A stretch of DNA of 33,628 bases from contig CADDZM010000023.1 of assembly GCA_902812345.1 (NCBI GenBank), positions 1 to 33,628 of the forward strand, in the 5' to 3' direction. Of this stretch, positions 9,708-21,309 are shown in pieces; positions within the stretch are counted from its first letter, which is position 1; the number at the start of each line of letters is the position of its first letter. Below the pieces are notes generated by a model. That model was not told where the DNA came from. It saw nothing but the letters and a program-made list of their open reading frames with translations, and made no database searches. This DNA is from Chloroflexota bacterium. GTDB lineage: Bacteria; Chloroflexota; Chloroflexia; Chloroheliales; Chloroheliaceae. Made by a program: the position numbers and the translations under genes.

Positions 9708-11309
9708 TTACGGAATAAGGATGGCGTCACCCGGCTTGGCGTCAGCGGGACTGCCGTAACCATTGAACCGGGCCAGGTCATCAACATTCACTTTGTAGCG
9801 GTTCGCGATGGTTTGCAGGTTTTCGTTATTGTTGATGATAGCGCCTCTGCCCCGGAAGGTGGGACGCGAGACCGGGACCACAATTCGGTTTCCGGCAAAA
9901 ATCGTGTTTGGCTGCAAACCGGGGTTAGCGGCCTGGATAGCCTCAATTGAGGTGCTGTACTGCGTTGCGATACGGGTCAGGTTGTCGCCACTCTTGATGA
10001 CGTAGACCGTAGCCCTGGGTAAAGCCGGGGCCGCCGGGGCGGTGGTTGCCGGAGGTGGCGGCTGAGTTGCCGTGGGCGGTACGGCTGTAAGCTCGGGAGC
10101 CTGGGTTGGCGCCGGGGCCGTGGTAGGAGCTACCGTCGGGGCGGCGGTTGTCGGGGCGGCGGTGGTAACAACCGGAGCAGTCGTGGCAGGGGCAGTGGTA
10201 GCGGCCACCGAGGTCTGAGCGGCGGCAGTGGTCGCGCCTACAACCGGCACTGTTAGGGCAATTGCGCTGGTGGTAGCCGGTTTATTGCCCGGCGTGCTGG
10301 TGCTGACCGGCGTATTGAGGATGGCCGCCGAAGTGGTGGCCGGGGCAACTGCCACGCTGGTAGCGGTTTCGTTTGAATTTTTATTGAATACCGGCAAAAG
10401 CAACACAATCAGGGCCGCGATAACCAGGATAATGCCTAAAACCACCAGCGGAATGAGAACCTGGCGAGAGCGGCGCTGGCCGTTCTGGTCAAGGTCGGTC
10501 GGGGTGTCGCCGCCAAAAGCAGCCCTTCCACGCTGCCGGGCCGAGGCCAGTCCGCCCATCAGGAACGAGCGGCGGGAGTTGGAACTTTCCGGCTGGGAAC
10601 CAACCGGGCCGGTATAGACCGGCTCATCGACCATATCATTATCAGGCCCGACTTCATCTTGCCTGGCAGGAACAGTCGCCGGTACATAAGCCGGGGGGGT
10701 TGGCCTGGAAGAACGAATCTGAGCCGTGGATGGCCGGTCAATCGCGCCGGGTGTATTAAGCTGGCCGAAATCGGGCCGGTAAGGCGGAGGCGCGGCGTTC
10801 TCATCAGTTGACACCGATTGGGCCTGGTTGAAGGGCGAAGCGGCTTCCTGGTAAGGGTAGCGGGTAGTCTGGTTTGGAGCTTTAAGGGTATCAGGCGCGG
10901 AAGTTCGGCTGAAGCTTGAATTAAAGCCGGAGATAACCTCGCGCTCTGCGATAGGCGGAGTGGCCGCCCCCGCCGTAGACCCGCCGTTAGAGGGGGCAGT
11001 GCGATTATTTGATTCAGCGCTGAGGCGATTCTGGATGCGTTCTACGCCGCGTTGGGCCTTTTCGTTGGCCGGGTTGATATTCAGAACCCGCTGCAAACAG
11101 ACATAAGCCTCGGAGAGGTCCTGGGTGGTCGCGGCCCGGTAAAGCCAGCCTAACTCGTTATTGGGGTCGCGCCGCACGACATCGCAAAAGATGTCATAGG
11201 CTTCGTCGCGGCGGCCTTCTTTTGCGGCTTTGAACCCCTGAACCAGCAGGTTACTGACTTCGGCATTGCTCGCGGTGGTGGTATTACTACCAGCATTTCC
11301 TATGGTCAT
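9708..11309 (-). CDS. TPR-transmembrane-LysM protein (cell-wall associated)
   Basis: 533 residues. Residues 18-98 form TPR-like helices (LLVQGFKAAKEGRRDEAYDIF, NELGWLYRAATTQDLSEAY, then LNINPANEKAQRGVERI). A low-complexity Pro/Ser/Asn-rich stretch extends to about 280. One transmembrane helix (284-307, LIPLVVLGIILVIAALIVLL) is followed by a Thr/Ala/Pro-rich extracellular stalk. Two LysM domains close the protein. LysM1 (436-479) is well conserved: YVIKSGDNLTRIATQY through NRIVVP. LysM2 (about 488-533) is more divergent, with NENLQTIANRYKVNVDDLARFN. LysM binds GlcNAc-containing polymers such as peptidoglycan, so the protein probably links a cytoplasmic TPR scaffold to the wall. ATG at 11309 has AGGAG upstream. 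No enzymatic domain is seen. Confidence 0.88.
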   Translation of the reverse strand: MTIGNAGSNTTTASNAEVSNLLVQGFKAAKEGRRDEAYDIFCDVVRRDPNNELGWLYRAATTQDLSEAYVCLQRVLNINPANEKAQRGVERIQNRLSAESNNRTAPSNGGSTAGAATPPIAEREVISGFNSSFSRTSAPDTLKAPNQTTRYPYQEAASPFNQAQSVSTDENAAPPPYRPDFGQLNTPGAIDRPSTAQIRSSRPTPPAYVPATVPARQDEVGPDNDMVDEPVYTGPVGSQPESSNSRRSFLMGGLASARQRGRAAFGGDTPTDLDQNGQRRSRQVLIPLVVLGIILVIAALIVLLLPVFNKNSNETATSVAVAPATTSAAILNTPVSTSTPGNKPATTSAIALTVPVVGATTAAAQTSVAATTAPATTAPVVTTAAPTTAAPTVAPTTAPAPTQAPELTAVPPTATQPPPPATTAPAAPALPRATVYVIKSGDNLTRIATQYSTSIEAIQAANPGLQPNTIFAGNRIVVPVSRPTFRGRGAIINNNENLQTIANRYKVNVDDLARFNGYGSPADAKPGDAILIP

Positions 11310-12027: not shown

Positions 12028-14997
12028 GTGGCAGATACAGGAATAATGGCAGTAGATAACGATAATCAACCAGGCGAGGTTTTCCCCGATAATTTAACCG
12101 GCAACCCTTCGTCTGACCCGGGCGTTTCCAGACCCGCCGCGCAAGACCTGCTGGATGGCCCGGCGGATTTGCCGGACGAAGAAGAGTTTACTGCGTCTGA
12201 GATTTCTTCTCCAACCCCGATTTCTATCAGGCGCTGGTGGCGAATGCCGCCCTCTTTCCGCTATCATTTGTCTCTTGAAGCAGTTTTGTACATCCTGATA
12301 ATTGGGTTCGCGGCCTTCACCCGCTTCTATGACCTCGATTACCGGGCGCTCCATCACGACGAAGGGGTCCACGCTTATTATTCCTGGCGGCTTTTTAACG
12401 GGCAGGGCTACGACCAGGAACCCTGGAAACACGGCCCGTTCCTTTACCATATCCAGGCGCTGGTTTTCTGGCTGCTGGGTGACAGCGAGTCGGTCGCCCG
12501 GGTTTCGACAGCCCTTTTCGGCGTGCTTATTCTGCTGCTCCCGCTCGGTCTGCGGCGCGAGTTAGGCCGCTGGGGCAGCCTGACGGCTGCCTTCCTGCTG
12601 GCAATTTCGCCCATGTTTTTGTATTTCAGCCGCTTTTTACGCGAAGACATTTTTGTCGCTTTTGCGACCCTGGCCCTGTTTGTATGCCTGGTGCGGTTTA
12701 TTCACCGGCCCCGGGCGGTCTGGTGGTACGCCGGGATGCTGTCGTTGGCGATGCTCTTTTGCACCAAAGAGGTTAGCTTCTTCTACCTGGCCCTTTTTGG
12801 CGGATTTTGCCTGGCCTGGCTCTGCTGGCAACTCGCGCCCCGGTTGCTGCTCATTCTGGGCGGCTACGCGGTCCTGGCGGCCGTGGTCTTTTTCTTTGTG
12901 ATGACGCTCTACCCGCCGCCCGCGATTCCGTTCGATACCGTTTCGGGCGAAGCCATCCGCGCCTATGTCGGGCAACTGTTGACGCACCCGGTCTTCTGGA
13001 GCTTTATAATACTGGCCGTGACCGGCATCGGCATTTATATTTTCGCCTTCCGCGAGGTCGCCTCGGCCCGGCGGCAGTTTATGGTCAGCCAGGGCTGGAC
13101 CACCCCGGATATATCGCTGGGCCGGGCTTTGTTCGCGCCCTACCGCCAACCGCGTACGGTGGCCTATGCTACAGCCTGGTTGGGTCGCCACCGCCAGGTA
13201 CTCTGGATTGGCCTGAGCCTGGCCTTCGCTTTCTACTTTATCCTCTACACCGGATTTTTTACCAATATCGCCCAGGGATCGGTCGGCATCTTTAGCGGGC
13301 TGTGGTACTGGATGGCCCAGCAGGGGGTAGCCCGGGGCAACCAGCCCTGGTTCTACTACTTTTTCATGATGCCGCTTTACGAGCCGCTGGCCTTGCTGTT
13401 CGGAACCGTCGCCGGGGTGATTATCCTGGCGCGGGCTTGCCGGTTTGGTTTTAGCCGCCCCCGCAAGCTGGTCTGGCTGCCCGTATCAGACCTGGAAAAA
13501 GTTGGCCGGGCCAGTCCCGGCGACGCTTCCGCCGATACCGATGACGAAATGGATTCGGCTACTCCCCCTACCCTGCCCGGTATTAAAAAGGCGGACCCCG
13601 GCCAGGAAGAAGAAACGCTGGTCGAGGTCGAAGTAGTGGTCCGGCCTGCCGGAAATGACATCTGGCCGGGTCGGCGGCGGCGCGAGAACCATCCTTATTT
13701 TGTGCGCTTGCTGCTGGTAGCCTGGGCCTTTGGCGGGTTCGCTTTCTACACCTGGGCCAGCGAGAAAATGCCCTGGCTGACCGTCCAGGTGGCGCTGCCG
13801 TTTATCCTGCTGGCGGCTTATTCGATGGAGCATGTCTGGTCGGGCATCGAGGAATATTTCCAGAGCGGGGCGCACCGCCTGCCGGTTATCTGGGGCGTAA
13901 AAAGCAAGGTCTTTTTCTGGGTATTCCTGGGCGGCCTGGTCTTCACGGGCTTCCTTTTCTACATGACCCTGCTAAACCTGACCTCGGTGCAGTTAAACAT
14001 TACCGGCACAGCGGGGCGGCTTGACTGGCTGACCATCTTTATTCCCCCCGTGATTGCCCTGCTGTTCTTTACGGCGCTCTTTAGCTTTATCGGGTTGCAG
14101 GTGGCTTTACGGGTCGGCGGCGCGGTATTGTTCGGCTTTTTGGTCTATTTCCTCTTGCACACCGGCTTTACCTACGCTTTCGACCACGGCGACGTGGCCC
14201 TTGAAATGGGCGTTTACACCCAGACCGCGCCTGACCTCTACCAGGTTGTCAAAGACCTTGATACCGTCAGCACGGTTTTATCGGCCCAGAAACAGCAGTT
14301 ACCTGACTCCGAGCGGACCGGCCCAACCAAACTTGATAACTTAAAACTGCTGCCGGTGTTGTACGACGACGATTTGCGAACACCGCTCGACTACTACCTG
14401 CGCAATTACACCAACCACCGCCGGGTCGTGGATTACACTACCTCGATTACAAACAGTTTGAGCCTGATGGACTACCCGGTTATCATGGTAGCGGATTCAA
14501 AGCAAAACACCCTGAGTGACGCGCAGAAGAAGACCCTGGCCGACAATTATGTAGCCCAGCACTACGTTTTCCAGTACTGGTTCGAGGAAAGCCAGTACCG
14601 CGATTTCGACCAGTCGGCCTCGATTCAGATACAGGAATTGCAAAATAAACCTTCCGCCGAAACCGTTAAGGACGCTTCCAACCAGATAGCGGTTAACAAA
14701 GGCGAAATGATGACGGCCGATTTGCTGCAAAAGCTGGCCGGGGAACCGGGCGTGCTGGACAAGGTTTATAATGCGAACGGCGGCAATTCGTCGCTGCTGC
14801 ACCTGCAACAGGCCGGAAAATCGCTCTATCGGTTGACCAGTCCGGGCGATTTCTCCCGGTTGTGGCGTTACGTGATGTTCCGGGAACAGTTCCAGCCTCT
14901 CGGACAGAGGCAGTTCACCCTGTACATCAAAAAGGACATTATCGGAATCTGGCGGCAATACAGCGACCTGGTGCCATTTCCCATCAGCGGTTCCTAG
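12028..14997 (+). CDS. TIGR03663/Agl23-type GT-C-fold membrane protein
   Basis: 989 residues with a soluble acidic N-terminus of about 78 residues and then many transmembrane helices. After the first helix comes YRALHHDEGVHAYYSWRLF. Its HHDE (109-112) sits in the first external loop, where GT-C glycosyltransferases carry acidic catalytic residues. WKHGPFLYHIQALVFWLLGDSE and SRFLREDIFVAF follow, characteristic of the Agl23 (flippase-associated) family. A hydrophilic loop of about 80 residues between helices contains DTDDEMD (503-509) and VVRPAGNDIW. The C-terminal part is soluble and ends with WRYVMFREQFQPLGQ. The likely role is transfer of sugar from a lipid-linked donor, or help in lipid-linked glycan export, at the membrane. 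The start is GTG at 12028; ATG at 12046 is an alternative with a poorly spaced AGGA. The next gene is a paralogue. Confidence 0.85.
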   Translation: MADTGIMAVDNDNQPGEVFPDNLTGNPSSDPGVSRPAAQDLLDGPADLPDEEEFTASEISSPTPISIRRWWRMPPSFRYHLSLEAVLYILIIGFAAFTRFYDLDYRALHHDEGVHAYYSWRLFNGQGYDQEPWKHGPFLYHIQALVFWLLGDSESVARVSTALFGVLILLLPLGLRRELGRWGSLTAAFLLAISPMFLYFSRFLREDIFVAFATLALFVCLVRFIHRPRAVWWYAGMLSLAMLFCTKEVSFFYLALFGGFCLAWLCWQLAPRLLLILGGYAVLAAVVFFFVMTLYPPPAIPFDTVSGEAIRAYVGQLLTHPVFWSFIILAVTGIGIYIFAFREVASARRQFMVSQGWTTPDISLGRALFAPYRQPRTVAYATAWLGRHRQVLWIGLSLAFAFYFILYTGFFTNIAQGSVGIFSGLWYWMAQQGVARGNQPWFYYFFMMPLYEPLALLFGTVAGVIILARACRFGFSRPRKLVWLPVSDLEKVGRASPGDASADTDDEMDSATPPTLPGIKKADPGQEEETLVEVEVVVRPAGNDIWPGRRRRENHPYFVRLLLVAWAFGGFAFYTWASEKMPWLTVQVALPFILLAAYSMEHVWSGIEEYFQSGAHRLPVIWGVKSKVFFWVFLGGLVFTGFLFYMTLLNLTSVQLNITGTAGRLDWLTIFIPPVIALLFFTALFSFIGLQVALRVGGAVLFGFLVYFLLHTGFTYAFDHGDVALEMGVYTQTAPDLYQVVKDLDTVSTVLSAQKQQLPDSERTGPTKLDNLKLLPVLYDDDLRTPLDYYLRNYTNHRRVVDYTTSITNSLSLMDYPVIMVADSKQNTLSDAQKKTLADNYVAQHYVFQYWFEESQYRDFDQSASIQIQELQNKPSAETVKDASNQIAVNKGEMMTADLLQKLAGEPGVLDKVYNANGGNSSLLHLQQAGKSLYRLTSPGDFSRLWRYVMFREQFQPLGQRQFTLYIKKDIIGIWRQYSDLVPFPISGS

Positions 14998-15051
14998 TAA
15001 ACAAAATTAATTCGCTATTTTTGGCTTTTATTGAGGATTGAAAACCATAAA

Positions 15052-18000
15052 ATGACTGAACAGGCAAGACCTTTTAAGAATACTCACAACCGCATTGACA
15101 CGCTGGATACCGCGCCGCCGGGCGTGAAGGAAAACCCGGACGGCGCAACCGGTGAAACCGGGCGGGTAGTTAAAGTTTCTCCTGAAACTCTGCCGCCGCG
15201 CCGGAGCGTCCTGGACAGCCTGATTGCCTCGGGCTGGTTAAGCTGGGAAAAGGTCTTCTGGATTTCGATAATCGCCCTGGCGATTGCGACGCGCATGTGG
15301 GATCTGGCGGAGCGGGCCATGCACCACGACGAAAGTATCCACGGCGTTTTCAGCTATGATATGTACCGGGGCAAGAACGTCTACCGCTACGACCCGACCT
15401 GGCACGGCCCGGTTCTGTACTACATGGTCACGCTTTCCTACTACCTGTTAGGTGGGGCCAGTGAATTCAGCGCCCGGTTTGCCCCGGCGGTGTTCGGTAT
15501 CGGTATCATTGTCCTGTGCTGGTTCTTGCGGCCGCTGCTGGGCCGGGCCGGCGCGATTGCCCTGGCCCTGCTGGTCCTGATTTCGCCTTCAATCCTCTAC
15601 TATTCCCGCTCGTTACGCCACGATATTTTCGCCACGTTCGGCATGGTGCTGTTTGTGGTCGGCCTGTTCCGCTTTGCCCAGGAACGCAACCAGAAAAAGA
15701 TAGGCTGGTTTATAGCTTCCGGGGTCGGCTTCTTTATCCTCTTTGGCAGCCACGAAATGTCGTTCTTGAACCTGGCAATTGTGGTTAGCTGGCTGGGGCT
15801 GATTTTCCTGCTGGAAGTGCTGACGCTCCCGGCCTGGATTCGGCGGCCCGCTGCCCATGTAATGAATTTTATCCCGCCCGGCCCGAACGTCATCCGGCCT
15901 GCCGTTGCGGTCAATCCAGCCCTGAAACGAAAACCGCTGGACGACGATGACGAGATGGACGAGCCTGATACGGTCGGGCCGGTCGCTACCCAGGCCAGTT
16001 TTGACGACCTGACCAAGGTAGAAAAACCCGGACCCATCCCCGGTGAGAATGAAGTAATTGTCGAAGAAATAGTAAAACCGGGTGAGCTTGCCGGTACAGT
16101 TAAGCCGGGCGGCACCGAAGCCGGCGAAACCCCTGGCGACTTTGTTGAAGCAGATTTCCCGCCCGAAACGACCGGTGAAGCAGCCTCATTGGCTGCTAAC
16201 CCGGCCTGCGGCCTAGGCCAAACGGCAACCGCGCCTTTAGAAAACCGCTACCGGACCGGGCGCTATTCTTACGGAGGGGAACAGTATACCGACCCGGCGC
16301 TGGGCGACTTCACCAAGACCTGGTACGGGTTCTTTGTCCTGTTCGCGGTCCTGGTTGTCAGCGGGGGCATTCACCTCTTTTACGACAAGACCTATGGCGG
16401 AACTCTAACCCAGTTTTTAGGGGTCAACGCTTACCTGATTTTGCTGCCGTTCTACCTGTTACTCTCGGCCCTGGTGGCCTACCCGCTGGCCCGGCTGACT
16501 AATCTTGGCTATAACCGGCTCAGCCGGAAGGGCAACCGAATTGCCCGCTTTACGGCCCTGGGGATTGGCGTGGCCCTGGCCCTGGTCGCGATTGCGCTTT
16601 TCCTGCGGGGCCACTCCCCGGCCTCGTACCTGGCGGCGCTTGGCACGCAGGTTTCCGGCACTTCCAACGCGGCCCTGAACGAAACCGTCAGCAACGGCTT
16701 TAGTTACTTTACGACCATAAGCTACTTTGCCTTGAAATGGCCTTCGATAGTTCCCGAACTCGGCTTTGTAATCGTGGCGGCGGTACTTGCCGGGGCGCTG
16801 GTCGGCTGGCTGTGGGAACGCGGCATGCTAGTCTACACCCGGCGCGGCTTCTGGGCCTGGGGTATCAGCTTCGCGGTGGTCTTTGTAGTGTCTTCGCTGG
16901 TCAGCCTGCGCTTTATCCTGGGGATTGACCGCACAGCCTTGCCTAAAGTGGTGCTGCCGCTGCTCGGCTTTATTGACAAATGGTTCGCTTACTTTCTGGG
17001 CGGGGCCATCCTGGCCGTTATCATCGGGGCGGTTATAGGCTGGTTCGTGTCTATGGCCGAGGTTATCCCGGACGAAGCGGTGCGCGGCGCGGCGGTGCTT
17101 CGGACGCTCTTGAAGACAGCCCGCAATCCCTGGTCCATTGTCGGCTTTTTGCTCGGCTTTGGCATCCTGTACGTCCTGATTTTTAGCAACTTCTTCTTTG
17201 CTCCCGAACGGCTGGCGGACGGCTTTTACCGGGGCATCGAATACTGGCTGGCCCAGCACGAAACCCGCCGCCTGGACGAGCCGTGGTTCTACTACCCGAT
17301 GCTGATGCTGCTGTACGAAACCTTCGCCGTTTTCTGCGTCTTTATCGCCCTGGTCTATTTCCCCATCGTCTTTTTCAGGCGGACCCGGCGGCGCGAACGG
17401 TTTATCTTTACTCCCAAAGGGGTCTTTATCGGCCTGACCTTCTGGTGGACCTTCCTGGCCCTGCTGATGTATTCGTTTGCGGGCGAGAAAATCCCCTGGC
17501 TGAACATGCAAATCGCCCTTCCGGCCAGCATGGCAACGGCGGCTTTCCTGAACGATTTCTTCCGGTCAATCAACTGGAAAAAGCTGCTTAACTGGAAAGA
17601 AGGGCTGCTTTTTACAGGCATGTTTATCCTGATGTTCGTGGCGACGCTAGTTGTGATCGGGCAGCTTATCAACTTCCCCAAAATCGGCCAGTTTGACGCC
17701 GGGTTTGGCCGGGTGGTAGTTGCTTCGGATACGATTTTAAGCTGGGCGCAGGTAGTCCTGGTTTCTACAATCGGCCTGGCGCTGTTTGGCTTAAGCGTGT
17801 GGATGTGGCGGACCCGGCGGCTGGACGGACGGATTGCCCGCGCCTCAATTTTCCTGGTCTTCGGGGTTATCCTGCTGGCCTATTGCCTGAAAAGTTCAAT
17901 CGCCCTGAATTACCAGCACCCTGATGTCGCTATCGAGCCGATGATTTATACCCAGACGACCCCGGAAGTGCCGCTTTTTGTGGAACGGTTGGACCGCCTG

Positions 18001-19551
18001 AGCCGCGACCTGCGCGATGTTTACTCGATAGTGCCACAGCAACCCGCCGCCGGGACCGCGCCTGTTACCTATAACGACCCGGCTAACAGCAAAGGGCTGC
18101 CGGTCTTTATGAGCACCGAAGTGGCCTGGCCGCTTAGCTGGTATTTCCGCGACTATTCGGACGTGACCCAGCAGGCCATCAACACGGACGCGAACAACCC
18201 GAACGCGATTGACCGCCTGACCGACAGCCGGGGCAATAATTTCGTGGTTGTGCTGGTGTCCGCCGACGAAGCGAATAACGCCAAGCTGCAGCAGCAGTTG
18301 CAGGGGCAGTATACCGCCCAGCGTTTCCGCTTCCGCTGGCACTTCCCGGAAGACAATACCGGGTATAGAATTTTAGGCTACCAGCCGCCGGACGACACCC
18401 GCAGCAACGACACCGCCGTTAAAGACATTATTAATACACGCTGGGACTTGCTGGTGCAGTTCTTCACGCAGCAGCCGTATGTCGGGCAAATCTGGCGTTA
18501 TATTATGTACCGCGAGATGGTAAACCCGCTCGAATCGTTCGACATGGTGGCCTATATCCGCAACGACGTTTACGCGGATTTTGCCAATACCAACGGCACG
18601 ACCTCGCCCACGAGCGGCAGCAGCGCCACGCCTGATACCAACGCCAACCAGAACCAGACCTCGTTCGACCTGACCGCTTCAACCCAGGCCGGAAACCGGG
18701 ACGGCCAGTACCGCACCCCACGCAATATAACGGTGGCTTCAAACGGCGATATCCTGGTGCTGGACAGCCTGAACGGGCGGGTGCAGCGGTTTGACTCGAC
18801 CGGGAAATTCCTCTCGAAATTCGGCAGCATCGGCACCGGGGACGGCCAGTTTACCCTGGCCCAGTACCAGAGCGGGCCGGGCGGCATCACTACCGACGAC
18901 GAGGGTAACATTTACGTGGCCGATACCTGGGGCTACCGTATCGAGAAATTCGACTCGACCGGCAAATTCCTGTTAAAGTGGGGTGCGGGCAAGGACACCA
19001 CCGGCAGCCCGGACGGTAACGCCGCTTACCCGACCGGTTTCTACGGGCCGCGTTCGATTGCCTTTGACGCTTCCACCGGCGAGCTATATATCACCGATAC
19101 CGGCAACAAGCGGGTGGTGGTTTATGACAAGCAGGGCAATTTCAAGCGGCAATTCGGCTCGGTCGGCAGCGGGCAGGGCCAGTTCAATGAGCCGGTCGGC
19201 ATCGCGCTCGGCCCCGACGGTAACGTTTACGTGGCCGACCTGCGCAACAAACGGGTTGAGGTGCTGGACAAACAGGGTAAATATATCAAGGAAATTGCGG
19301 TCCCAAGCTGGAAAGAAGCCGTTTTGAGCGAGCCGTACCTGGCGTTCGACCCAGCGGGCAACCTGTATGTTTCGGACCCGGCTAACGGCGCGATTATCCG
19401 TTTCGACCAGACGGGGACGCAGGTAGCGACCTACAATACGGCCAGCGGCCTGACCCTGCTCAACCCGGTTGGCCTGACCTTTGCCCCCGACGGCACCCTG
19501 TATATAGCCGATGCGGCCAAAAACAGCATCGTAAAATTTAAACCATCTTAA
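15052..19551 (+). CDS. TIGR03663/Agl23-type membrane protein fused to a C-terminal NHL propeller
   Basis: 1499 residues. The first part parallels the upstream gene: RAMHHDESIHGVFSYDMY with HHDE at 91-94, DPTWHGPVLYYMVTLSYYLLG and SRSLRHDIFATF. Further helices follow, and the soluble segment ends in WRYIMYREMVNPLES. A hydrophilic loop of about 150 residues contains DDDDEMD (297-303) and acidic repeats. After a Ser/Thr/Asn linker (about 1183-1210), residues 1213-1499 form an NHL beta-propeller with repeated G-x-IYVADTWGYRIEKFD-type blades, about six in number. The propeller is probably external and may bind glycan or partner protein. I chose ATG at 15052; a TTG at 15031 in the same frame has no ribosome-binding site. 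The gene follows the paralogue by 54 bases and precedes the third GT-C gene by 12, so all three are probably one operon. Confidence 0.87.
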   Translation: MTEQARPFKNTHNRIDTLDTAPPGVKENPDGATGETGRVVKVSPETLPPRRSVLDSLIASGWLSWEKVFWISIIALAIATRMWDLAERAMHHDESIHGVFSYDMYRGKNVYRYDPTWHGPVLYYMVTLSYYLLGGASEFSARFAPAVFGIGIIVLCWFLRPLLGRAGAIALALLVLISPSILYYSRSLRHDIFATFGMVLFVVGLFRFAQERNQKKIGWFIASGVGFFILFGSHEMSFLNLAIVVSWLGLIFLLEVLTLPAWIRRPAAHVMNFIPPGPNVIRPAVAVNPALKRKPLDDDDEMDEPDTVGPVATQASFDDLTKVEKPGPIPGENEVIVEEIVKPGELAGTVKPGGTEAGETPGDFVEADFPPETTGEAASLAANPACGLGQTATAPLENRYRTGRYSYGGEQYTDPALGDFTKTWYGFFVLFAVLVVSGGIHLFYDKTYGGTLTQFLGVNAYLILLPFYLLLSALVAYPLARLTNLGYNRLSRKGNRIARFTALGIGVALALVAIALFLRGHSPASYLAALGTQVSGTSNAALNETVSNGFSYFTTISYFALKWPSIVPELGFVIVAAVLAGALVGWLWERGMLVYTRRGFWAWGISFAVVFVVSSLVSLRFILGIDRTALPKVVLPLLGFIDKWFAYFLGGAILAVIIGAVIGWFVSMAEVIPDEAVRGAAVLRTLLKTARNPWSIVGFLLGFGILYVLIFSNFFFAPERLADGFYRGIEYWLAQHETRRLDEPWFYYPMLMLLYETFAVFCVFIALVYFPIVFFRRTRRRERFIFTPKGVFIGLTFWWTFLALLMYSFAGEKIPWLNMQIALPASMATAAFLNDFFRSINWKKLLNWKEGLLFTGMFILMFVATLVVIGQLINFPKIGQFDAGFGRVVVASDTILSWAQVVLVSTIGLALFGLSVWMWRTRRLDGRIARASIFLVFGVILLAYCLKSSIALNYQHPDVAIEPMIYTQTTPEVPLFVERLDRLSRDLRDVYSIVPQQPAAGTAPVTYNDPANSKGLPVFMSTEVAWPLSWYFRDYSDVTQQAINTDANNPNAIDRLTDSRGNNFVVVLVSADEANNAKLQQQLQGQYTAQRFRFRWHFPEDNTGYRILGYQPPDDTRSNDTAVKDIINTRWDLLVQFFTQQPYVGQIWRYIMYREMVNPLESFDMVAYIRNDVYADFANTNGTTSPTSGSSATPDTNANQNQTSFDLTASTQAGNRDGQYRTPRNITVASNGDILVLDSLNGRVQRFDSTGKFLSKFGSIGTGDGQFTLAQYQSGPGGITTDDEGNIYVADTWGYRIEKFDSTGKFLLKWGAGKDTTGSPDGNAAYPTGFYGPRSIAFDASTGELYITDTGNKRVVVYDKQGNFKRQFGSVGSGQGQFNEPVGIALGPDGNVYVADLRNKRVEVLDKQGKYIKEIAVPSWKEAVLSEPYLAFDPAGNLYVSDPANGAIIRFDQTGTQVATYNTASGLTLLNPVGLTFAPDGTLYIADAAKNSIVKFKPS

Positions 19552-19563
19552 AGCAGGAGCATT

Positions 19564-21309
19564 TTGCTTAATACGAGTAACCTTGCGGAAATAAAAACGC
19601 GCCAGACCCCGGAGTATGTGCCGCAAAGCTGGTTGGGCCGGTACTGGTGGGTGGCCGGGGTAGTCGTGGCGGGGGTAGCGGCCTTGCTGCTGTCCCTGAC
19701 CCGCTTCGGCTACTTCCTTAACGAAGATTTTACCCTGATAAACCAGTACACCGGCAACCAGTCCGCCGGACCGCTGGGTTACTTTACCCGGGATTGGGGT
19801 CTGGACGGCCTTTTCTATGCGCCGCTGCCGCGCTTCTTTTTCTGGCTGGAATACCAGTTATTTCACCAGACCGCCTACGGCTGGCACGTTTTCTCGACCC
19901 TGCTGCATACCGCCTGCGCGGTGCTGGTGTGGCTGCTGGCCTGGCGGCTAACCCGGCGACCGGCCCTGGCCCTGGTGGCGGGGCTATTTTTCGCGGCGCT
20001 CCCGGCGCACGTTCCGGTGGTCGGCCAGATAAGCGCCCAGGCCGATTTGTGGGCGGCCCTTTTCTGCCTGGCCTCGGCGGTAACGTTCCTTTACGCCCGC
20101 CAGACTCCGCCTTTTAGGAGGGAAACCGGAGCCGTCCGGGACTCTCGCCGCTCCAACCGCTTTTACATACTTTCGATAGTTTTTTACGGGCTGGCTTTGC
20201 TTTCCAAACAGGAAGCCAATGCCCTGCCGCTGGCCCTGCTGGCTTTCGACTTTGTTACAGGCGGCGTGGACAGGTTGCGCGGCCAGACCAACTCTCAGGA
20301 AGCCGCCAGCGACCGGACCGGTACGACCGGCAGCCATCTTTTAGGCTTTTACGCGCCGTACCTGGCTTTGCTGGTCCTTTACCTGTTGCTGCACCTGGCC
20401 GTGCTGGGTGGATTAGGAATTTATACGACCGGCATCGTGGGGCAGGGTACCGGCCTCCCGGATTTCTTGAGGAACAATGCCCGGACGCTGGCGCAGCCTT
20501 TCGCCCTGGGCGGCACCGACGGTTTAATCCAGATTGCGGCCTTACTCGCCTTTTTGTGCCTGACCGGGGTCCAGGAGTGGGAAGCCTGGAAGGTGAACAA
20601 CCCTGACCAGGCCCAGGTTGTCTCCAGGGAAAAAGCCGCCCGGCTGGATGCGCCCTTTATCGAAGACGATGACGAAATGGACGACCCGGCATTTGAGGTT
20701 AATCCGCCGGAAGCGGAAGCAGTACATAAGGCCGAGACGGTAATGGAAACGCCGCAAAAGCTCGAAACCGCCCGGGTGAGACCGCCTGAGCCGGTTATAA
20801 CCAGGCCAGCTAACGACGAGTGGGAACTGGACGACCCCAACGCGGTCCTGGCGAACGAAGCCCCGGTGGAACCTCCGCCGCCTTTAGCGGGAGAGGACCC
20901 TGAAGTTGCGCCGGTAACGGCGGAACCTGCCGGGACAATCCAGGCCGGAGAAACCCGCCCGCCTTACTGGACCTTGCGGGCGGCGGCTTTCGGCTTTCTC
21001 TGGACGGGCGCGTTCCTGCTGCCTTTCGTGATGCAAAAGATGACCAACGGGCCGCTGTACCTGGCAAGCGCCGGGTTTGTGCTGTTCCTGGCCGCTTCGC
21101 TGGCTCCGTTCGGGGCGGCGTCGGTCCACCGGGCTGCCGATAAAAAACAGGCTCGGACCCTTTTCGGCCATTTCGAGCTGAGTTTCTGGCTGCGGGTGGC
21201 CGCAATAACGGTCCTGACCTGCGTCTATTTCGCCACGACTGTCGGCAGCGTCACGGATTGGAACGCTACCACCAGGCCGGTAGGGGCGCTCTTAAAGTTT
21301 TTCCTGTAG
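19564..21309 (+). CDS. GT-C-fold membrane glycosyltransferase-like protein, C-terminus possibly truncated
   Basis: 581 residues. After the first transmembrane helix comes RFGYFLNEDFTLINQYTGN, with Asn-Glu-Asp (53-55) in the first external loop, as in GT-C mannosyltransferase-like proteins. Further motifs are YGWHVFSTLLHTACAVLVWLL and AALPAHVPVVGQISAQADLWAALF, in the manner of O-mannosyltransferase-like families. A hydrophilic insert (about 345-465) contains DDDEMDD (368-374) and VITRPANDEWELDDP, resembling the inserts of the two preceding genes. The TTG start has AGGAG eight bases upstream. The coding region ends right after the last helix, and its last 18 bases overlap the end of the opposite oxidoreductase gene. 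Relatives usually continue with a soluble tail, so the C-terminus may be truncated. Substrate unknown. Confidence 0.8.
   Translation: MLNTSNLAEIKTRQTPEYVPQSWLGRYWWVAGVVVAGVAALLLSLTRFGYFLNEDFTLINQYTGNQSAGPLGYFTRDWGLDGLFYAPLPRFFFWLEYQLFHQTAYGWHVFSTLLHTACAVLVWLLAWRLTRRPALALVAGLFFAALPAHVPVVGQISAQADLWAALFCLASAVTFLYARQTPPFRRETGAVRDSRRSNRFYILSIVFYGLALLSKQEANALPLALLAFDFVTGGVDRLRGQTNSQEAASDRTGTTGSHLLGFYAPYLALLVLYLLLHLAVLGGLGIYTTGIVGQGTGLPDFLRNNARTLAQPFALGGTDGLIQIAALLAFLCLTGVQEWEAWKVNNPDQAQVVSREKAARLDAPFIEDDDEMDDPAFEVNPPEAEAVHKAETVMETPQKLETARVRPPEPVITRPANDEWELDDPNAVLANEAPVEPPPPLAGEDPEVAPVTAEPAGTIQAGETRPPYWTLRAAAFGFLWTGAFLLPFVMQKMTNGPLYLASAGFVLFLAASLAPFGAASVHRAADKKQARTLFGHFELSFWLRVAAITVLTCVYFATTVGSVTDWNATTRPVGALLKFFL

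Follow-up and report, generated by a model that had tools for sequence, protein, structure and literature searches.

Three adjacent membrane-protein genes

The window, the whole 33,628-nt stretch of DNA analysed here, is a contig of a 6.72-Mb genome from the family Chloroheliaceae (Chloroflexota). Three open reading frames, A, B and C, lie next to one another on its forward strand:

12028..14997, + strand: ORF A, Agl23-family (TIGR03663) GT-C-type membrane protein, 989 aa (TIGR03663, 230 bits; PMT_2)
15052..19551, + strand: ORF B, Agl23-family membrane protein ending in an NHL-repeat propeller (TIGR03663, 203 bits; NHL)
19564..21309, + strand: ORF C, PMT-like membrane protein, 581 aa (PMT_2 below cut-off; family homologues)

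We read B from the ATG at 15052, a start conserved among relatives as MTEQARPF; an alternative TTG start lies at 15031. Both A (230.1 bits) and B (202.7 bits) exceed the curated cut-off of 126.25 bits for Agl23 (TIGR03663), and a tree places the split between these two paralogues before the separation of the Chloroflexia families. C scores 23.3 bits against PMT_2 (PF13231), under the gathering threshold of 26.1, and is called PMT-like only. The third protein had been described from the sequence alone as not closely similar to the first two, and this agrees with the homology of A and B and the weak relationship of C to them. Given that an archaeal Agl23, from Haloarcula, has been reported to translocate lipid-linked sugars (PMC11182771), the handling of such sugars is a likely setting for A and B. 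A profile of A matched no PDB chain. Just upstream on the opposite strand, and divergent from the A–B–C operon, is a gene for a 533-aa LysM-domain protein (9711–11309, − strand).

Five Chloroheliaceae genomes (about 35 Mb) were compared. Three belong to one genus, namely the window genome and the MAGs 54-19 and RYN_336; Chloroheliaceae bacterium L227-5C and Ca. Chlorohelix fall in the same family outside that genus. We take the fifth genome to be Ca. Chlorohelix allophototropha, as its replicons of 2.96 Mb, 2.45 Mb, 375 kb and 241 kb match those published (PMC10972752). The order A–B–C is the same in all three genomes of the genus. For the homologues of C in L227-5C and Ca. Chlorohelix, strict orthology is not firmly settled by the tree. 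C of the window stops after its last hydrophobic stretch, and these two homologues (L102, L103) add a soluble C-terminal region; the one in L227-5C is also in frame with a Nudix-like N-terminus, in a 911-aa open frame.

A shared acidic motif in non-homologous loops

Each of the three proteins has a long hydrophilic loop that contains the pentapeptide DDEMD:

13456..13698, + strand: hydrophilic loop of A, residues 477–557, predicted cytosolic; flanked by hydrophobic helices and Arg-rich at both ends; coil in a low-confidence model
13540–13554, + strand: DDEMD in A, residues 505–509
15847..16314, + strand: hydrophilic loop of B, 156 aa, predicted cytosolic; differs in position from, and is not homologous to, the loop of A
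15946..15966, + strand: DDEMDEP in B (DDEMD 15946–15960; residues 299–303 from the ATG at 15052, 306–310 from the TTG at 15031)
20590..20958, + strand: hydrophilic loop of C, 123 aa, predicted cytosolic
20668..20688, + strand: DDEMDDP in C, followed by AF (DDEMD 20668–20682; residues 369–373)

The sequence-only reading had placed DDEMD at these residues of three consecutive membrane proteins and remarked on near-identical coding DNA. We confirmed both points, with B read from its ATG; GAYGAYGARATGGAY, which codes for DDEMD, is found at just three sites in the entire 6.72-Mb genome, one per gene. The loops are rich in D, E and P, with a D/E content of 16–24%. When they were shuffled, DDE[LM]D arose at frequencies of 0.0005 (A), 0.00025 (B) and 0.00055 (C), and a 5-mer common to all three shuffled loops appeared in 0 of 20,000 trials; the observed loops share DDEMD in the window genome and DDELD in 54-19. 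The motif is real, specific to the family and far beyond chance, and it is probably functional as a linear motif.

From hydropathy, charge distribution (positive-inside) and helix parity, the three loops are all predicted to face the cytosol. AlphaFold2 models of A (five sequences) and C (three sequences) were poor, with pLDDT of 44 and 39; the motif regions, which are hydrophilic, are coil in these low-confidence models, and we infer that the loops are disordered. In alignment, the motif column of A falls in a short inter-helix stretch of B, and that of B in a short loop of A. About 30 homologues of A and B from other Chloroflexia families, some of them in partial frames, contain no relaxed form of the motif. 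Because the two loops are non-homologous and these homologues lack the motif, its presence in A and B is best read as two independent gains.

Retention and loss among relatives

In the loop of A, D505, D506 and E507 are invariant across five orthologues (down to 47% identity), compared with 4 of the 74 other loop columns; the versions seen are DDEMD, DDELD, DDELT(P), DDELDEL and DDELDAP. B reads DDEMDEP, DDELDEP and DDEMDEP, with DGELDEP in Ca. Chlorohelix, and the motif is absent from B of L227-5C and from a second B copy of Ca. Chlorohelix. C has DDEMDDP, DDELDNP (54-19), EDELDDP (RYN_336) and ENDELDDP (Ca. Chlorohelix). The last of these is kept in the same loop of C, although Ca. Chlorohelix encodes C on chromosome 1 and A and B on chromosome 2. 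In L227-5C the homologue of C has no loop at all. Relatives without the motif, which the earlier reading had named as evidence against itself, are therefore found in part: L227-5C lacks it in B and C and keeps it in A (DDELD) and in an ATPase described below (DEELDEP).

In 54-19, A, B and C all carry DDELD. The copies within this one genome use different synonymous codons, and so the likeness appears to be held at the protein level, which argues for selection on the protein.

An unlinked ABC ATPase carries the motif

We scanned the five genomes with the motif pattern and with reversed-pattern controls. DDE[LMIF]DxP gave nine matches, seven in A, B or C and two in the tails of orthologous ATPases, against one for the reversed pattern. 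The wider [ND]D[DE][LMIF]DxP gave 22 against 8, comprising FtsZ (5/5 genomes), A/B/C, the ATPase, CysRS and two strays; the CysRS match to the relaxed core [ND]D[DE][LM]DxP sits in folded protein. A shorter pattern, E[LMIF]D[DENK]P, showed no enrichment over the control, and most of its L/M candidates that were inspected were folded proteins or spurious frames.

The additional carrier is the following:

L048:295-1791: GldA-like ABC ATPase whose acidic C-terminal tail contains DDELDEP-type motifs (orthologues L049, L066, L112 and L113)

Tails in all five genomes carry the motif, as DDELDEP, DDELDDP, DDELDEL, DEELDEP or DEELDDAP and often in two copies, and APSFL is conserved in every one. The ATPase scores 309.7 bits against GldA (TIGR03522), under the cut-off of 402.6, and is termed GldA-like only; its operon includes GldF- and GldG-like genes, all below their curated cut-offs. 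The gene is unlinked to the A–B–C operon. The motif is therefore not confined to that operon and, as judged from these scans, characterises a group of envelope membrane systems. Two properties of short linear motifs are seen here: retention while the surroundings diverge, in the columns of the A loop, and recurrence at non-homologous sites and in unrelated proteins, in the A and B loops and the ATPase tail.

Proteins with a YYY domain (TIGR03662) were not counted as carriers, as DEELDDP occurs only in that of Ca. Chlorohelix and not in the orthologues of the other four genomes. The Ca. Chlorohelix protein (L210:2457-8288, − strand) has 1944 aa, C-terminal TPR repeats and a hydrophilic stretch LDEELDDPF. 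A 309-aa acidic protein of Ca. Chlorohelix (L190:1093-2019, − strand), with repeats of ETDEP, NELDEP and EELDSAP, may be another carrier; it matched no NCBIfam model.

The second element is conserved only in A

A second motif, RPA-x-ND-x-W or RPANDEW, had been noted in A and C:

13642..13665, + strand: RPAGNDIW, membrane-adjacent element of A; conserved in the genus, diverged to GNSLWP in L227-5C
20803..20838, + strand: RPANDEW-ELDDP in C, with a weaker second ELD[DN]P copy; RPAND is lineage-specific

The observation stands for A, which alone keeps the element, beside the membrane, as RPAGN[DA]IWPGRRRR within the genus. It does not extend to C: the C of 54-19 reads DPAQRDDWELDNP, that of RYN_336 has nothing resembling RPANDEW, and the part that survives in 54-19 is WELD[DN]P, another ELDxP copy. 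We therefore rejected RPA-ND-W as a conserved element common to the two proteins.

Resemblance to the FtsZ C-terminal peptide

FtsZ ends RPA(V/A)..NDDLDIPPFLRYR in all five genomes. The motif shares with this peptide a [ND]-D-[DE]-[LM]-D-x-P core, set in cytosolic sequence that is presumably disordered, and, occasionally, an RPA..ND flank; it differs in that the copies lack the hydrophobic I/V before P, nearly always lack Phe, and lie in internal loops rather than at a C-terminus. One reading of this likeness is that the motif copies the acidic half of the FtsZ peptide, and that its carriers would dock on the receptor of that peptide (FtsA, possibly SepF) and so be brought to the division site. 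FtsZ was the sole other disordered bearer of [ND]D[DE][LM]DxP found in the family scan (22 against 8 reversed matches), and FtsA is confirmed, encoded beside ftsZ. Some copies match FtsZ in the flanks as well: C of Ca. Chlorohelix, PAENDELDDPNF, is like its own FtsZ, PAANDDLDIPPF, flank included (2/2000 shuffles), the RYN_336 ATPase tail RPAQDDDELDELD like the FtsZ tail (6/2000) and the window C loop likewise (31/2000). The APSFL of the ATPase tails also recalls VPSFL in the C. glutamicum FtsZ peptide DDLDVPSFLQ (PMC7118173), and a precedent exists in the GpsB motif common to S. aureus FtsZ and PBP4 (PMC11062636).

Against this, D, E, A, S or N stands where FtsZ LDIP has its hydrophobic I, and nearly all copies lack Phe; in the published SepF complex (PMC7118173), D, P and F are labelled as conserved. 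Of the D-x-P-x-F core expected of an FtsZ mimic, D and P are present in most copies, and F is limited to two C proteins, those of the window (DDPAF) and Ca. Chlorohelix (DDPNF). Most loops align to the FtsZ peptide no better than shuffled sequences do (4/19 loops at ≤0.016), and FtsZ matches the pattern only after it is widened to allow N and D. Docking on an FtsZ-peptide receptor is thus a lead that we think unlikely though worth keeping. It is similarly doubtful that glycosylation proteins and an ABC exporter of the Chloroheliaceae evolved imitations of the FtsZ peptide and use FtsA or SepF for recruitment to the division site, which would tie surface-sugar assembly to cytokinesis.

Discussion

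Because the motif seems to have been gained independently in non-homologous cytosolic loops, is retained amid divergence and is found in an unlinked carrier, we read DDE[LM]DxP, on a fine balance of probability, as a family-specific docking peptide for a common putative cytosolic partner. The proposal that the loop is a docking motif for a common partner had been made from the window alone. As a candidate docking peptide it is well supported by the comparative data; the further idea that the peptide binds A, B and C into one complex is not. A single glycosyltransferase complex held by direct contacts among the three proteins would agree with their common operon order in the three same-genus genomes and with the motif in all three genes. 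However, the motif also occurs in the ABC ATPase and, in looser form, in FtsZ; C of Ca. Chlorohelix is unlinked yet keeps it; B and C of L227-5C are without it; and an identical acidic peptide on all three proteins points to a third-party receptor. We regard such a complex as very improbable.

Less probable still is an origin at the DNA level, by duplication of a short segment or its conversion from one gene to its neighbour. Such copying would fit the near-identity of the 14-mers in these adjacent genes and the M or L common to all three copies within the window genome and within 54-19. Synonymous sites and flanks differ among the copies, however, and the motif is found on other contigs or chromosomes in C of Ca. 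Chlorohelix and in the ATPase; codon differences and unlinked copies led us to reject gene conversion. The loops might also have no specific partner at all, being acidic, proline-rich spacers in which compositional selection reached similar strings. Their 16–24% D/E, the lack of enrichment of E[LMIF]D[DENK]P and the absence of the motif from some orthologues favour this. Yet per-loop shuffle frequencies of about 0.0003–0.0005, 0/20,000 joint shuffles with a common 5-mer, retention in A while its loop diverges and the discovery of an unlinked ATPase carrier in a genome-wide scan all speak against composition alone, and we hold it to be improbable.

Under the docking reading that we favour, envelope membrane proteins of the Chloroheliaceae would present a short linear motif in disordered cytosolic loops or tails; the carriers are the two Agl23-family proteins, the PMT-like protein and the ATPase of the GldA/F/G-like ABC system. 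A single cytosolic protein would recognise acidic-acidic-E-[LM]-D-x-P on these carriers and thereby gather the proteins of surface-glycan work and export in one location or hold them in a common regulatory state. Counting against it are B of L227-5C and the second B copy of Ca. Chlorohelix, which lack the motif, the loopless C of L227-5C, EDELD in RYN_336 C and a sample of five genomes only.

The arrangement resembles the S. aureus GpsB motif, by which a single adaptor recognises otherwise unrelated envelope and division proteins through a short peptide at their cytosolic ends (PMC11062636). That motif, (S/T/N)-R-x-x-R-(R/K), is basic and its receptor is solved, whereas the Chloroheliaceae motif is acidic and lies mostly in internal loops. 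A and B are members of Agl23/TIGR03663 by the curated cut-off, but homologues in other Chloroflexia families are without the motif. The ATPase, permease and GldG-like proteins match GldA–GldF–GldG, below cut-offs, and the acidic motif/APSFL tail is additional to that system. Our literature search found no paper describing the motif and none with DDELDEP.

Few bacterial envelope systems are known to share docking peptides. In this case the motif apparently arose on separate occasions in the two ancient paralogues, in a PMT-like protein and in an ABC ATPase, all within the one family to which the type-I-reaction-centre phototroph Ca. Chlorohelix belongs. If FtsA or SepF proved to be the receptor, glycosylation would be linked to the divisome through imitation of FtsZ. 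A receptor, if found, would show how Chloroflexota place their surface-glycan proteins.
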